DNA of 64,000 nt from Allodiplogaster sudhausi (lineage: Eukaryota; Nematoda; Chromadorea; Rhabditida; Diplogasteridae): assembly GCA_945643635.1 (NCBI GenBank), contig CALZFC010000033.1, positions 1,029,001-1,093,000 on the forward strand, written 5' to 3'. Each line of letters opens with the position of its first letter. Position 1 is the first letter of the stretch. The notes under the pieces were generated by a model that was not told the DNA's origin, did no database searches, and worked only from the letters and a program-made list of their open reading frames with translations. Of this stretch, positions 19,419 to 37,937 are shown one piece after another. The translations under genes and the position numbers were made by a program.

Positions 19419-20896
19419 TTAATAAACGGAATGGCCAAAGTGTCCAATGTCAGAGACGAGAACGTCTTGGAATGGATCGTCGAAGAAGCCATCGGGTTCG
19501 AGGGACTCTGAGATGGAGGAGGGGGAGCAGAGAAGGGGGTCTTGGGTGCCAATGAGGACTGGAGAACTACCTGGGTGGTCTACCAGCTTCAGCTCCTCTT
19601 CCCATCCCAGCTGGTCGTCCTCTTCCATCCTCACGAAATGCGACTCCATCGGTTCTTCCTTGACAAGAGACGAGTGAGACTCAGCCGGAGAGAAGGAGGA
19701 AGAGGCTGCCGAGGGGGACCATGCCTCTGTCTCCGAGTATCCCTCCGGGTACTCCTCATCACCTTCTGGCCCGATGCCGAGCTCGGCGCACAGCTGGTCG
19801 ATGTCGATGTCGCCGAGATCTTCGAGGACGGCGTCGATGTCGTCTGGAGGGAGGAGAGGTGCAGCAGATGAATGAGCTGCAGGAGGAGAGTTGCGTGGTG
19901 CGGCGGCCGGTACGGCGAGTGAGCCTGAGCCCTCTGCTGGGGTCCACTAATGGATGCGGCTGATCCAAGGGTGTCACTCGTCGCGTCTGCGCTCTCCGCT
20001 TCTGCCTTGACTCTCACTCTTCCCTCTCCTCCCTCCGCCAGGACTCGGCCAGGCACGGCTTGTTCTTGCTGGAGACGGAGTTCCTGCTCGAGGCGGTTCA
20101 GGCGTGCATTCAGGGAGGCATTGTCTGCCCGCAGCTTGCGGTTCTCTTCCAGAAGCAGACGCACTGCCCCTTCCAGACCCGATGTTCGCTCCTGCAAAGC
20201 GATCGATGACATACTTTTTACTCGTAAACCGGTAGAGTGGGCAGTTCCTTTCTCAATAAACGAAGCCAGATCTATTCCTAATTCGCAACCCAAATAATTC
20301 TCACCAAGTTCACCCCGTACCCCCCTTCCATTATTGATCTGGAATGTTCACAACTTCGCTCCCTCTATTCATATCCGGCTCTAATGCTCTCAATAATCGC
20401 TCTGTTGACCACTCTCTGTAAACTTAACATAGCACTCCATCCTCTAGTGAGCATAGACGAACCCTAACTTATGTAAACATTCATTGCAAGGACAATGATT
20501 TCACCTTTGACCTAGATATCCACCAGCTTCGAAAGAAACTCAAGGACGGACATGAGATTCACCATGGTTGTAATGGGGAAAAGATGAGTGCGAAGGGATT
20601 TTGAATAAACTGACTTTCTTCCTGTCGCGAGCAGTCTGAGCAGCAACTCTATTCTTCATCTTCCGTCTGGCCATCTTCTGTTCTGCAGTCAGATCTGTGA
20701 GTCTCTCTCGGCGTCTGGGTTTAGTCGCTGTGCGCGGAGTGAGAAGTTCTTCTGGATCGATGGAGAGTTCTCGAGGAGAGGCAGGGAGCGGCTTCGCTGT
20801 TGTCACTGTAGCGGGAGTTCGCTTCATGATCGTGCCACTCGCGACGGGACGGACGATCGATGAAGCAGGCACAAGGTATATCCGTGTTGGAGCCAT
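19419..20896 (-). CDS. XBP1: XBP1 bZIP transcription factor of the unfolded-protein response
   Basis: XBP1 is the IRE1-controlled bZIP activator of ER-stress genes. Exon 1 (20615-20896) gives MAPTRIYLVPASS, then a basic region with KMKNRVAAQTARDRKK, the XBP1 signature. Exon 2 starts at 20191 and continues with a leucine zipper (ERTSGLEGAVRLLLEENRKL onward). The 23 bases at 19937-19959 form an IRE1-type intron. If they are removed, the frame shifts into a long acidic domain (DDIDAVLEDLGDIDIDQLC and later EEDDQLGWEEEL) ending at the TAA at 19419-19421. If they are kept, the frame runs to a stop near 19631 through a Ser/Thr/Pro- and basic-rich tail. The span given is for the spliced form. The conventional intron between the two exons is 20192-20614. 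Confidence 0.95.
19937..19959 (-). promoter_or_regulatory. XBP1: IRE1-cleaved 23-nt intron with twin stem-loops in XBP1 mRNA
   Basis: On the minus strand, the two cleavage sites sit in seven-base loops that match C-x-G-C-x-G-x. The first is CAG|CCGC in stem GGAT/ATCC. The second is CAG|CAGA in stem CCC/GGG. Removing 23 nt (not a multiple of three) changes frame from GSAASISGPQQ to GSAEGSGSLAV and opens the acidic activation domain. C. elegans and Drosophila are known to use 23-nt introns at this place. Both loops, the spacing and the frame effect agree, so confidence is high. Confidence 0.93.
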
Positions 20897-21642
20897 CTCA
20901 GAGGGGGCAGAAGGGCGGATGCCCCGGACACTTCAGACGAGCTGCGAGCGCTCCTTCCTTCCACTCAATGTACACGTCAGCACTGACGGGTAGACACACC
21001 ATTGGGAGCAGAGAGGGGCGGGGCTTAGCAAGAGGAGAGAGTGCACGGGGAAGAGAAGGCAGTGATGAACAGAGGTGAGCGAGAGAATAGGGAAGACAGA
21101 GAAAGCAGCCACCATATGTTTGACAGAAAAGCAGAGACGCTTCCCGAAATGATGCAATCAAGATCGTTTTTAGGCATAAACCTGTACATCTATTTCAACA
21201 AACAAAGGGAAATTACACATATTTTATCACAAGAACCAAAACTGGAAGAAAGCATAATTATTATCGCATACTCTGGCACGAATCTTGGGACTAAAGCTAA
21301 TTCACAAGTGATCTTTAGGGCTTGTGCCTGCAAAATCACTGCTAAAGTGACCTTAATTTTAATAAAATAATTCACAACCACTTCATTAATAGTTTGTTGA
21401 ATAACCAACTCGCATCGGTAGAGCTGAGAACACTGCACAGTTATCGCTGAAACATAGACCGAAACTGGATCCTATAAAATGCTTCAAATGGCATGAGAAA
21501 AGTAAAGTGAATGCTCGACAGATGAAAGTTGTACGAGGAAAGAGGAGGCAACGAGGAGCAAAGCAGAACTGATCAATATACACACCGGGAACAATATAAC
21601 TGTATACTCTATGGAGATTAACGAAGACATATATGAGATGTA
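20897..21642. other. Intergenic: XBP1 upstream region and DnaJ 3' region
   Basis: The XBP1-proximal 250 bp is GC- and purine-rich with the UPRE-like site. The rest is AT-rich and is presumed DnaJ 3' UTR. No further gene was recognised. Confidence 0.55.
20973..20979 (-). promoter_or_regulatory. UPRE-like TGACGTG element upstream of XBP1
   Basis: TGACGTG on the minus strand, about 75 bp upstream of the XBP1 ATG. It matches the core bound by XBP1 and ATF6-type bZIP proteins. A CCAAT (minus strand, 21001-21005) lies about 22 bp further upstream and is followed after nine bases by ACCCG, an imperfect echo of the ERSE layout. Possible auto-regulation is inferred. It could also lie in the 5' UTR. 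Confidence 0.4.
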
Positions 21643-23683
21643 TTAAAAAAGGCCGAAAAAGCTTCCCCTCGGCTTGCCAGAGGGAGAAACGTCAGTTTGG
21701 TATCGCGCTTGGGAAATTTGGATGACGGAGTCGTAGAGAGATTCGCGATTCTTGAGAGTCTCGACTATGAATGAATCTTCCTCCTTCAGTTTCTGCTCTG
21801 CTTCCGCAAATCTACAAGTCGAAACGAGCTTTTCAGAAGAAAAAAACTCAATGAGAAAAAGCGGAAGAGTAAAAAGCTTTGAGAGAAGAAGAAAACGAGC
21901 CAACTTTCTCTTGGCATCGGCGTATTCTATCTGGAATTGAGCCATGGCAGTCTTTTTCATGAGAAGAATGGATTCAAACTTCGCAATCTCTTCCATCGGA
22001 TTTAAGCATTGCTCGTTCAAGGGAAGGAACGTCAGTGAATACCTTCAATCAACTAATTAAAGATAGAATTCAAAGAGGAAACTACCAACTTGACTTGATT
22101 CAGCCAGTTGTCCCCGTACACACAGAGAATATGAGACCTGGAGTCGAGGAGCTGAGCTGTCTTTAAAAAAAAAACATATAAATCCCAAAATAATTAAACC
22201 TATTAACGATTCTAAGGAGCCACAATCACAAAATAAAAATCCATTGTGAACAAAATGAGTTCTTGAAAAGAAAGGAAACCTGCGATTCCAAAGTGTCCAG
22301 ATAATGGAAAGCCAACGGTGTCTCACGGTCTTCCATGTGAAACTTCATAGGAACGAACTCCTCGAGATTTGCAATCTGCTGAGGAACAAAGAACATCACC
22401 GCTTGGGTGCATGACTTCTTCTTATGACTCTCCTGAAAACACACAAATTGCCTCCTGTTTAATTCATAATGACAAAGCGACAAATTCAACGTCTTTTTAA
22501 CTAATAAACCTAAATATAAACGTGTGAAATGTTTTTGAACAAAAGAGCAACCTGGATCAACCTAACGCCGCCTTCTTTATCGAACAGAACCAGCTTAAAC
22601 TTGCTCATCGAAGTGGACTTGCAAACAATGGAAACCCCGTGCTCTCGATATTGATCAATGACATCAATTTTGTAGAAGGCTGCCTCCTCAAAGCAAATGC
22701 AATTACGAAGAATATAATTTGATTAGGCATGGACCACAGAAGTAGAAAGGTTCCAATGAAATGAAGAAAAGTCTGGGTAAGAATAAAGAACTGTAACTAG
22801 CCTGCTTGCCAACAGAAGCAGCGACGGGTCTGCCGGGCTCGAGAGAAACTGCAGTTGTGTCACAAGGTGTTCCGTCGGACAGATGCCGAGCCTGTGCCAG
22901 AACTCTAGCACCGATCTGAGTTGGAATCGGCACTCCTAATTTCGAGAACAGAGCGCCGAAGACACGACCAACTCCACCCAATTCGGAAACGTCGAATCCT
23001 GGAGATATTATGATAGGAGATGTTCAAGCACTAGGATATGTATCGTTTGCGAAACAACCGGATTCGTTTGGAAAAAAAAGAAAAAAAAAAACAGAAAAAA
23101 AGAGAAACCGTCGAAGTCGAGTTGGGAAGAAGAAGGCCCGCTCACGTCGTACTGTCGACGCTTGTTCGGATCAGAAATGACTGCGTACGCGATGGAAAGT
23201 TTCTTGAAGTGTTCTTGAGCTGCAAATAACCACGTTGCCTGTCTATACAACAAACCATAAGCACATTCTTTCTCAAATTATTAATCAAACCCACAATTAA
23301 ATCTAAAAGTAAACATGGTAGAAGTACAGTGTTTACATTGGTCTAAATTTTGGCAGAGACCGTTCTGAAAAATTGCCACGGTATAGTGGAGACCATCCCG
23401 AAAGTTATATAGAAACACTCAAAACCACATGATTCTCGTCATGTTTTAATTCGAAAGAGACTGTACTCTTCCGACTTTTGTTGTTGGACCTTCCAAATCG
23501 AAAAAAGTATAAAAAAGAATTGGCCAAACCTTTTTCATCACCAGGATTGCGGTCTGGATGATACTTGAGAGCGAGTTTGCGAAAGGCGGTCTTGATCTCA
23601 GCCTCGCTAGCCCTCTTGTCAACCCCGAGCAGTTCGTAGTAGTCCTCATGGGTAGCATCGTCATCTTTCCGAGACGGTGACAT
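21643..23683 (-). CDS. DnaJ-domain co-chaperone, ARG1-like (multi-exon)
   Basis: The N-terminus at 23683 is a full J-domain: [20 protein letters not shown], then [15 protein letters not shown] with the HPD motif that stimulates Hsp70 ATPase. Exon 1 (23530-23683) joins an exon starting at 23219: [20 protein letters not shown], then RRQYDVSG. Later exons give [19 protein letters not shown], then [46 protein letters not shown], and C-terminal coiled-coil exons ([19 protein letters not shown] and [19 protein letters not shown]). This order (J-domain, a middle segment beginning LGVPIPT, a VYGDN block, a terminal coiled coil) is that of the ARG1 (Altered Response to Gravity) class of DnaJ proteins known from plants and some animals. 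The partner Hsp70 and the cellular role are not known from sequence. The stop codon is at 21643. Confidence 0.85.
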
Positions 23684-24012
23684 TCTTCAGAACAAACTTA
23701 TTAGCGAAGCTACTCTTACATAACACTTTTAATCACAAATACACAACAATTTTGAGCAAATGCTTGAGTCACCACCGTTTCCTGGGAACATCTGAAAATA
23801 AGGTCCGTCAACTTTTTCAAAATAAAACCATACCGTATTTAAAATAAACACGACACACTATTTTTCGGCTAATTTTTAATTCGGCGACTCTTCATCTGAC
23901 AACCCTTGCCTGGAATCATGCCGGATCATATTTAGATTAATTTATTTTGTAGGAAGAGAGCAGAAGTCGCTATTCTAATAGTCTTGAAGTTTGAAAAGTC
24001 ATATGCTGAGCA
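23684..24012. promoter_or_regulatory. Divergent promoter region between DnaJ gene and PWP2
   Basis: About 330 bp separate the two start codons, and the sequence is AT-rich. No TATA box or recognised factor site stands out. The compact head-to-head arrangement suggests shared regulatory DNA. Confidence 0.5.
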
Positions 24013-35554: not shown

Positions 35555-37937
35555 ATGGCCGAAATGGTTATTTGCCTGTTTATTTTCAATGATAAGTGGC
35601 TAATATTTTTCAGCTAATAATATTGTTATAGATAATGGATATTGAATTAATAAAAAATGAATGATGTAGTAACAAATAGGTGTTCAAACTGTGTGCGAGT
35701 GTGGCGGCAATGCTGTGTGGACTGGCCTTCTACCAGAGAACCATCAACATGTGGACACTCAAGAACCTCGGAGACGCGTTCCTGACCAAGGACATCGGCT
35801 CCAGGATTATCATACTCGGCACTTTCCTACGGGAAGCGACTGAACTCAACCTCTCAGGCACTTTTGCGGTCAGAGAGAGAAAGAGAGAGACAGAGAGGGT
35901 GGTGGAGGGGAAAGTCTATGAAGAGAGAGGAAAACATTTACATAAGGCTTTTTTTTAAATAATATAATTGTTCCTGAGGTAATTCATTTCCTCGGAGACG
36001 GCCGCCTTCCACACGATTTGTATTGCATCAGCAATGGAGGAGAGAACTCTCCATTCGTTAGCAGTGCACATATTCAGAGAATTAATCAAGGTTAGAGTAT
36101 TCATTCTTTACTTTGATTCAGAATTGAAAGTTCTTCAGGGAAGCGAGCAGCAAATGATATCTGTTCATGGGCCGGCCATCTGGCCGAGTGTGAGATTCGA
36201 CCGGACCAGTCCGGCTCTTTCCGGTTACGTGTTCTCTTCACAGTTACTCTTTAACATCAAGTGTATCTCTCATTCTCTCTCTCTCTCTCTCTCTCCGTCT
36301 CTCTCTCTCTTTCTCTTTCTCATCTTAGTCATCTTTCTTTCTTCAGCCTTGGGGTGACAGCAGACTCAGCTGATGCTCTTGTTCTGCAGCCCCCTCCTCC
36401 GCAGTCCTCCAAGAAGAAGCATGATCTGGTTGTCTGCGTTGCTCCCATGTACATTTACACTGACTGGGAGATCATGCTGACTGGTACAGTTTTGCTTGCC
36501 TTTTATAGACATTCTACTATTTAGTATAATTGTCAACAGAACTGATTGCACAGGAATCGAAACGTGGCTTGCTCTGGGTGCGACAAAGATAATAATCCCT
36601 ATTCAGTCTGCTTCTACTACAACCTACCGCATTCTGCAAGCATACGAAAAGGAAGGTAAGATTGGGAGGTCATGCTTCTCTATTTCACATACCCTCTCCT
36701 CTTTTTACGCTCTCTCCCCTTGTCTGTATTCCTAGCACTCCCTCATTCGCTCTTGCCCATGCTATACTATCTCTCCAGCACTCTTTGTCAGCCTCTCTCA
36801 CTCTCCTCCACACATCTCTTACCATGGCCTTCTTCCCTGGCAAATGTTCACTGGTAGTAGTCCGCCCGATATCGGTTGCGTAGTTGAGGGAACCAACAGC
36901 TCAAGCCTGGCTTCCTTAGCTTTGCGCAGTGGCGATAACGTGACCAATGAGGCTTAGCCGAGGTGCGTTTATTGCTGGTTGAAAACTTTTCCCAATTACC
37001 CGCTATGGCTCCTGAAACATGGATGCCATATGCAATTTTTGAACGCCCGAAGGGGCAAAATGTTCTGAAGGGCTGGGAGGTTTAGGAATCATAAAAACAG
37101 GATTATGTGTATCTGAGACTGCAGGTCTGGTTGTCATTCGTCACTGGCCCAAATGGCCCGTCCTCTCGGATACCAATCCAAATGGTCTCGTTTTGAGCAG
37201 AGGAATTGAGGAGTCTCACGTCAACTGCCTCTTCTATGTCAAACCATTCGCAGACATGGTAACTCTTTCTCTCCACATGGCAGTTGAATGAGTGCATGAT
37301 TAGGTAGTGTTCACGGACATTGACGACATGCTGCTGCCCGTTGATCCTCAGACGGCCGCCCCCGGGGGCAATGTCCAAATCCTTAAGGTTTGGCTCGTTT
37401 ACATCGAATTGTAAACGAAGACCGAAGTGTCCACTTGAGAGCCTCTTTGCCGAGCATCCCCAAGCGGGTTCTCTTCTCTTCGAGCACCGTGACACCCAGC
37501 TCCGTCTGCCTTCGCAGGAGGCAGGTCGTGCATTCTCACTCTTTATCTCATTGAATACGTGCCTCAATGTACGATGTCTTGTATTTGTTGTTCATTTCAA
37601 TCTACCAGTCAATATTCTGATATTTTTGATTTACGTATTTAAATGCGTATATCTGTGCTTTCTTATGTATGACTAACACAAAAGGGGACCGCTCTGTTTC
37701 TATCTAAACATTCAAACAATCATTTCAGCTGCAAATTCGCTTGCGGAATTCAACTTTGACTTTCTGGACGGGTCTCGCAGCAAGCAGAACTGCCAAGTGT
37801 GGAGAATGAAGACTCGAGTGGTCGTCAAGGCAGGCAAGTCATTGAGAGAGAGGAAGAGAAGGTGAGAAAGAAAGAGAGGGAGAGAGAGAGGGAAAGAGAG
37901 AGATAGTGCAAGAGAAGGAGAGATAGAGAGAGGAGGA

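Follow-up and report, generated by a model that had tools for sequence, protein, structure and literature searches.

A nematode XBP1 gene with an intact-looking IRE1 splice switch, and a sign of selection on its unspliced reading frame

The stress-splicing switch of XBP1 is well known and common to animals, and the intron that it removes is 23 nt long in C. elegans and in Drosophila. The human XBP1 intron is given as 26 nt (PMC6624018). For the cleavage sites, CNG/CNGN in a 7-nt loop (the stroke marks the cut) is the rule stated for S. cerevisiae Ire1; the XBP1 sites are described as 7-nt loops, and a zipper-like RNA structure is reported to keep both XBP1 exons together (PMC6037481). The unspliced form has a biology of its own. 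In mammals, the signal recognition particle recognises a region of the nascent unspliced protein (XBP1u) termed HR2, bringing the XBP1u mRNA to the ER (PMC4456659, PMC6624018). HR2 is reported to be conserved in Drosophila, where deletion of HR2 together with the pausing region reduced splicing and did not abolish it, and the same source names L246 and W256 among the residues of the human pausing region (PMC4138184). Mammalian XBP1 has also been treated as a case of dual coding, to judge by the title of Nekrutenko and He 2006 (a reference in PMC2329644). No report of HR2 or of dual coding of XBP1 in nematodes was met among the titles and abstract openings covered, a sample that leaves most of the subscription literature outside.

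The locus described here lies on the minus strand of a 64,000-nt stretch of Allodiplogaster sudhausi DNA, which in its whole length we call the window, and judged by its sequence it is a two-exon XBP1 gene. We put at roughly 94% the probability that the locus is a nematode XBP1 (xbp-1) gene whose IRE1 splice switch looks intact and uses the two-isoform mechanism proposed below. Its parts are the following.

20615..20896, minus strand: XBP1 exon 1, coding, with the ATG at 20896; N-terminus and bZIP basic region
20192..20614, minus strand: conventional GT-AG intron of 423 nt, borders GTCAGT...TTTGCAG read directly
19960..20191, minus strand: exon 2, part common to both isoforms, from the leucine zipper to the IRE1 5' cleavage point
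19937..19959, minus strand: predicted IRE1-excised intron CCGCATCCATTAGTGGACCCCAG, 23 nt, with cleavage after the third base of each loop
19631..19959, minus strand: tail of the unspliced isoform, basic and Ser/Thr-rich, ending with codon 280 and the stop
19419..19936, minus strand: acidic C-terminal domain of the spliced isoform, with the stop that ends the 343-aa protein

The preliminary description had named the gene XBP1 from the letters alone, and the searches bear the name out. A protein database search, in which 7,995 candidates were scored, gave 119 proteins at E up to 0.001. The best named matches were three Pristionchus records, two of them called X-box-binding protein 1; other nematodes and metagenome records without names came next, with many fish and a few arthropods after them, a ranking that makes a diplogastrid nematode the most likely host. 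The protein passes the Pfam bZIP_1 cut-off (34.2 bits vs 27.6), and removal of the 423-nt intron puts the leucine zipper in frame with the basic region. It is probably because this intron splits the bZIP that a Pfam bZIP_1 search of the genome gave seven matches without the XBP1 gene of the window among them. A PDB search with the protein gave generic bZIP chains, mostly of the Jun, Fos, CREB and Maf types. An ORF at 23405-23686 (minus), which has the strand of XBP1 and lies upstream of it, contains HPDRNPGDE and is presumably, by that motif, a DnaJ J-domain look-alike. The heptamer TGACGTG, which we label UPRE-like from the consensus, occurs at 20973-20979 (minus), 77 nt upstream of the XBP1 ATG, and is identical in both XBP1 copies described below; it was considered as a site of XBP1 auto-regulation and set aside, there being 11 such heptamers in the window in both orientations, itself included.

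At the splice element, the minus strand has the loops CAGCCGC (19962-19956) and CAGCAGA (19939-19933) where the preliminary description had placed them, with 23 nt between their cleavage points, and reading both ORFs recovers the frame switch that it had proposed: removal of the 23 nt turns an ORF of 280 aa (stop ending at 19631) into one of 343 aa (stop ending at 19419), with a basic, Ser/Thr-rich tail giving way to an acidic one. The "short GC stems" that it had put under the loops hold for the 3' hairpin, where CCC pairs with GGG, but not for the 5' hairpin, whose stem of UGGAU and AUCCA is not pure GC. A scan of both strands of the 64 kb for pairs of CNGCNGN hairpin loops, with stems of 3 bp or longer and 18-30 nt apart, found one pair, that of XBP1. 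Chance pairs numbered 0.01 per 64-kb strand in Markov-simulated sequence (mean of 100), a pair at exactly 23 nt appeared in 1 of 5,000 exon-2-like random sequences, and the twin-loop pair is not likely to have arisen by chance. Scanned against Rfam at gathering scores, the window gave no match at the splice element; its one hit was a U4 spliceosomal RNA gene at 36918-37056 (plus strand, 113.9 bits).

Folding of the RNA around the site, which the preliminary description had suggested as a check, gave a mixed answer. In three nested folding windows, the minimum free energy (MFE) topology has both hairpins inside a 7-bp exon-exon closing helix, made up as follows.

19974..19980, minus strand: closing helix, 5' arm CGAGUGA; pair probability 0.89-0.98 for 6 of the 7 pairs, 0.37 for the outermost
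19951..19967, minus strand: 5' IRE1 hairpin, stem UGGAU with AUCCA, 7-nt loop CAG/CCGC; stem pair probability about 0.6
19930..19942, minus strand: 3' IRE1 hairpin, stem CCC with GGG, loop CAG/CAGA; a 6-nt register competes
19916..19922, minus strand: closing helix, 3' arm UCACUCG

In the 3' stem, the 6-nt loop (P 0.53) is favoured over the canonical 7-nt loop (P 0.24), and the canonical form with two 7-nt loops lies 1.9 kcal/mol above the MFE. A 68-nt cut without part of the closing helix adopts a different fold that is no stabler than those of shuffled sequences (z +0.86, with 159 of 200 shuffles folding at least as well), and RNA stability was accordingly rejected as proof of the element. 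The predicted fold is thus only moderately supported, and sequence, spacing, frame and conservation, rather than RNA stability, carry the case for an XBP1 switch.

A second copy allows conservation to be read. When the genome was searched with exon 2 as DNA, two matches came up, the window and contig C43 (at 97%), and a search with the XBP1 protein led to the same two contigs. The second copy lies at C43:1929895-1931366, and about 8 kb around XBP1 is collinear between the copies at 91.5%. Their substitutions are distributed along the gene as follows.

5' flank: 11/152
Exon 1: 15/282, 13 of them silent
Intron 1: 33/418 (7.9%)
Common part of exon 2: 8/232, 7 of them silent
23-nt IRE1 intron: 0/23, the loops being identical too
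Wider RNA element, 19991-19918: 1/74, at its edge
Dual-coding stretch: 6/306
Spliced-only stretch: 7/212
Past the spliced stop: 10/113 (8.8%), plus gaps

Both proteins have equal lengths in the two copies (280 and 343 aa), and the two-copy alignment is free of indels from 20191 to the spliced stop. Since the lengths are equal and neither an indel nor a stop interrupts it, the acidic frame is maintained in this pair, and the decay of that frame, which the preliminary description had singled out as counter-evidence to its claim, is not what this one pair displays. Its statement that the switch is conserved in this genome likewise agrees with the second copy, in which the 23 nt are unchanged and neither frame is interrupted, and with the presence of IRE1, RtcB and archease on two contigs each. 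These matches are at exon level. The exons of the IRE1 KEN domain gave one match on C262 and two on C18, and both loci contain the KEN motif RAMRNKKHHY; SVRDLLRAMRNKKHHYR, present in both, is the nuclease motif, which we take to represent the catalytic nuclease residues; RtcB was matched on C352 and C92, and archease on C150 and C56. Stop codons inside one IRE1 match and three RtcB matches are taken for introns read through. The two-copy pattern of XBP1, IRE1, RtcB and archease fits a whole-genome duplication such as the one reported for the diplogastrid Allodiplogaster sudhausi (PMC12325724); alternatively, the copies may be diverged, uncollapsed haplotypes.

Among homologues, the spacing of the encoded loop footprints, read from the proteins, is that of a 23-nt intron in 19 of 22 and one codon shorter in 3, with 6 of the 29 sequences of the hydropathy survey described below left out for want of a second footprint. 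Neither the acidic tail nor the unspliced tail, when searched alone, matched a protein in a large database at E up to 10, so neither is independently identified by homology. When the acidic tail of the window was aligned with single nematode records, its score was reached by 5 of 1,000 shuffles for P0005 (Mesorhabditis), 19 for P0011 (Auanema), 40 and 140 for P0017 and P0021 (Ditylenchus) and 14 for P0038 (Dirofilaria). For the unspliced tail, the corresponding counts against P0005, P0011, P0017, P0021 and P0038 were 799, 619, 300, 49 and 419 of 1,000. This suggests a weak similarity of the acidic tail to other nematodes that is mostly frame-specific, P0021 being the opposite. The public records also fit the expectation in the preliminary description that gene prediction would miss the spliced protein: those of Pristionchus (P0001, P0003, P0004) have unspliced-type tails, and in the hybrid P0005 model from Mesorhabditis belari, the peptide encoded by the IRE1 intron is retained ahead of an acidic tail, which the model probably reaches by way of a spurious conventional intron.

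What our analysis contributes beyond that description is an HR2-like stretch and an indication that the unspliced tail is under selection. The stretch is the following.

19847..19894, minus strand: HR2-like hydrophobic stretch ATLLLQLIHLLHLSSL in the unspliced frame, with an 11-residue hydropathy peak of 1.97

The stretch is positioned like the mammalian HR2. Hydropathy was surveyed in 29 of 120 sequences (119 homologues plus the window) that contain the splice-site peptide, recognised by the motif SA[AVE][SF][IVF], the other 91 having been dropped beforehand. Tails with under 15% Asp+Glu were classed as unspliced-type, which covers 25 of the 29 (window included) and leaves 4 acidic ones. In all 25 unspliced-type sequences, the window included, the peak within the first 70 residues of the tail exceeds the highest upstream peak, and it reaches at least 1.6 in 24 of them (window included; P0028 has 1.52) vs none of the 4 acidic tails. 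Such a stretch is thus found in 23 of 24 unspliced-type homologues. The early peak also exceeds any in the rest of the tail in 21 of the 23 tails long enough for the comparison, the exceptions being P0028 and P0036. An arrest peptide is not clearly present in the unspliced tail of the window. The spacing of human L246 and W256 is matched by eye by L266 and W276, ten residues apart near the C-terminus, but unlike in mammalian and Drosophila XBP1u, nothing else of the pausing region is recognised there, and the likeness may be due to chance because three Pristionchus tails (P0001, P0003, P0004) end without the Trp of L-x9-W.

The sign of selection comes from the silent changes between the two copies. 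Of the 23 changes in the common exons, 20 are silent. Of the six changes in the dual-coding stretch, a single one leaves the spliced protein as it is, and it alters the unspliced frame; 5 alter the protein in the spliced frame and 4 in the unspliced frame. There is hence one spliced-frame-silent change per 76.7 sites in the dual-coding stretch vs 20 per 137.3 upstream (Fisher P 0.0013, Poisson P 0.00017), where the upstream rate would predict 11.2. Against the spliced-only stretch, with 4 changes per 47.7 silent sites, the contrast is weaker (Fisher P 0.07, Poisson P 0.012). Because spliced-frame-silent changes are rare in the dual-coding stretch, the unspliced tail seems to be constrained too, and a constraint on both overlapping frames is supported on the one pair of copies, with few changes, that makes up the sample of the test.

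That the unspliced frame is open proves nothing alone, since synonymous recoding of the spliced frame leaves an unspliced tail at least as long in 39% (usage-based) or 67% (own codons shuffled) of cases. These figures speak for a tail without a function of its own, in which the open frame and the hydrophobic stretch simply follow from the acidic frame and its codon usage, a reading that we consider unlikely. It also draws on the recoding test of the peak, run with the spliced protein held fixed and 20,000 trials per null, in which a peak as high near the splice site arose in 4.4% of usage-based recodings (0.8% with own codons shuffled), and on the stronger stretch further down the tail in P0028 and P0036, 2 of the 23 comparable unspliced-type tails. 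It does not account well for the single spliced-frame-silent change where 11.2 are expected, nor for its effect on the unspliced frame. The sole substitution within the HR2-like stretch is silent in the unspliced frame, where Ile stays Ile, and changes the spliced one, and among the homologues, the peak after the splice site stands above every upstream peak in 24 of 24 unspliced-type sequences and is at least 1.6 in 23 of the 24. Gene conversion, or a locally low mutation rate, could in principle produce low divergence in the dual-coding stretch in place of selection on two frames, and a sample limited to 6 changes over 306 nt in a single pair of copies gives this some room. Conversion would, however, depress all classes of change alike, and protein-altering changes are not suppressed in the stretch (5 of 6 change the protein of the spliced frame, at about 5 per 226 replacement sites vs 3 per 376 in the upstream exons), which makes gene conversion unlikely; divergence is 8.8% just past the stop, and we rate this explanation as quite improbable. 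That the bZIP is real and the IRE1 element a relic, with splicing lost and the acidic frame open by descent, would suit a predicted fold that is not unusually stable, but is very improbable given that the second copy, for all its divergence (7.9% in intron 1, 8.8% past the stop), shows no change in the 23 nt and keeps its 343 aa open without indels, in a genome with IRE1 bearing its nuclease motif, RtcB and archease on two contigs each.

Here we propose, tentatively and while leaning somewhat against it ourselves, that nematode XBP1 is truly dual-coding and that its unspliced tail is selected as an HR2-like device for co-translational ER targeting, even without a recognisable vertebrate or insect arrest peptide. 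If so, recruitment of XBP1 mRNA to the membrane by the nascent chain would either predate the known arrest peptide or be separable from it.

For the switch as a whole, we infer cleavage, ligation, ER recruitment and activator function from established XBP1 biology. In resting cells, the mRNA would be translated as the 280-aa unspliced form, and as its tail emerges, the HR2-like stretch would probably bring the ribosome and the mRNA to the ER membrane via the signal recognition particle. Under ER stress, IRE1 would cleave both CNG/CNGN loops, the exons would remain paired through the closing helix after cleavage, and RtcB with archease would ligate them, the removal of 23 nt shifting the frame to give the 343-aa activator with its acidic tail. 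Very probably, the 23-nt piece is indeed cut out of the mRNA under ER stress and the switch is a working one.

As such the switch is ordinary, and the evidence on dual coding and HR2 is a modest addition to it. The switch bears out textbook biology, in a genome whose routine annotation probably contains the unspliced protein only. The duplicated XBP1 offers a natural experiment with two copies, in which the dual-coding stretch resists silent change, and with an HR2-like stretch in this nematode and in other records, the delivery of nematode XBP1 mRNA to the ER by its nascent chain becomes testable.

Set beside metazoan XBP1 and C. elegans xbp-1, the locus shows no essential difference. Common to them are the bZIP, two CNG/CNGN loops around a short frame-shifting intron, a spliced acidic tail that replaces a different unspliced tail, and IRE1, RtcB and archease in the genome; the intron is 23 nt here vs 26 nt in human XBP1. 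As in mammalian and Drosophila XBP1u, a hydrophobic stretch follows soon after the splice site in the unspliced frame. As in dual-coding mammalian XBP1, both overlapping frames appear to be constrained; unlike in the mammalian work, the gene here is that of a nematode, and the constraint was measured between two copies in one genome.
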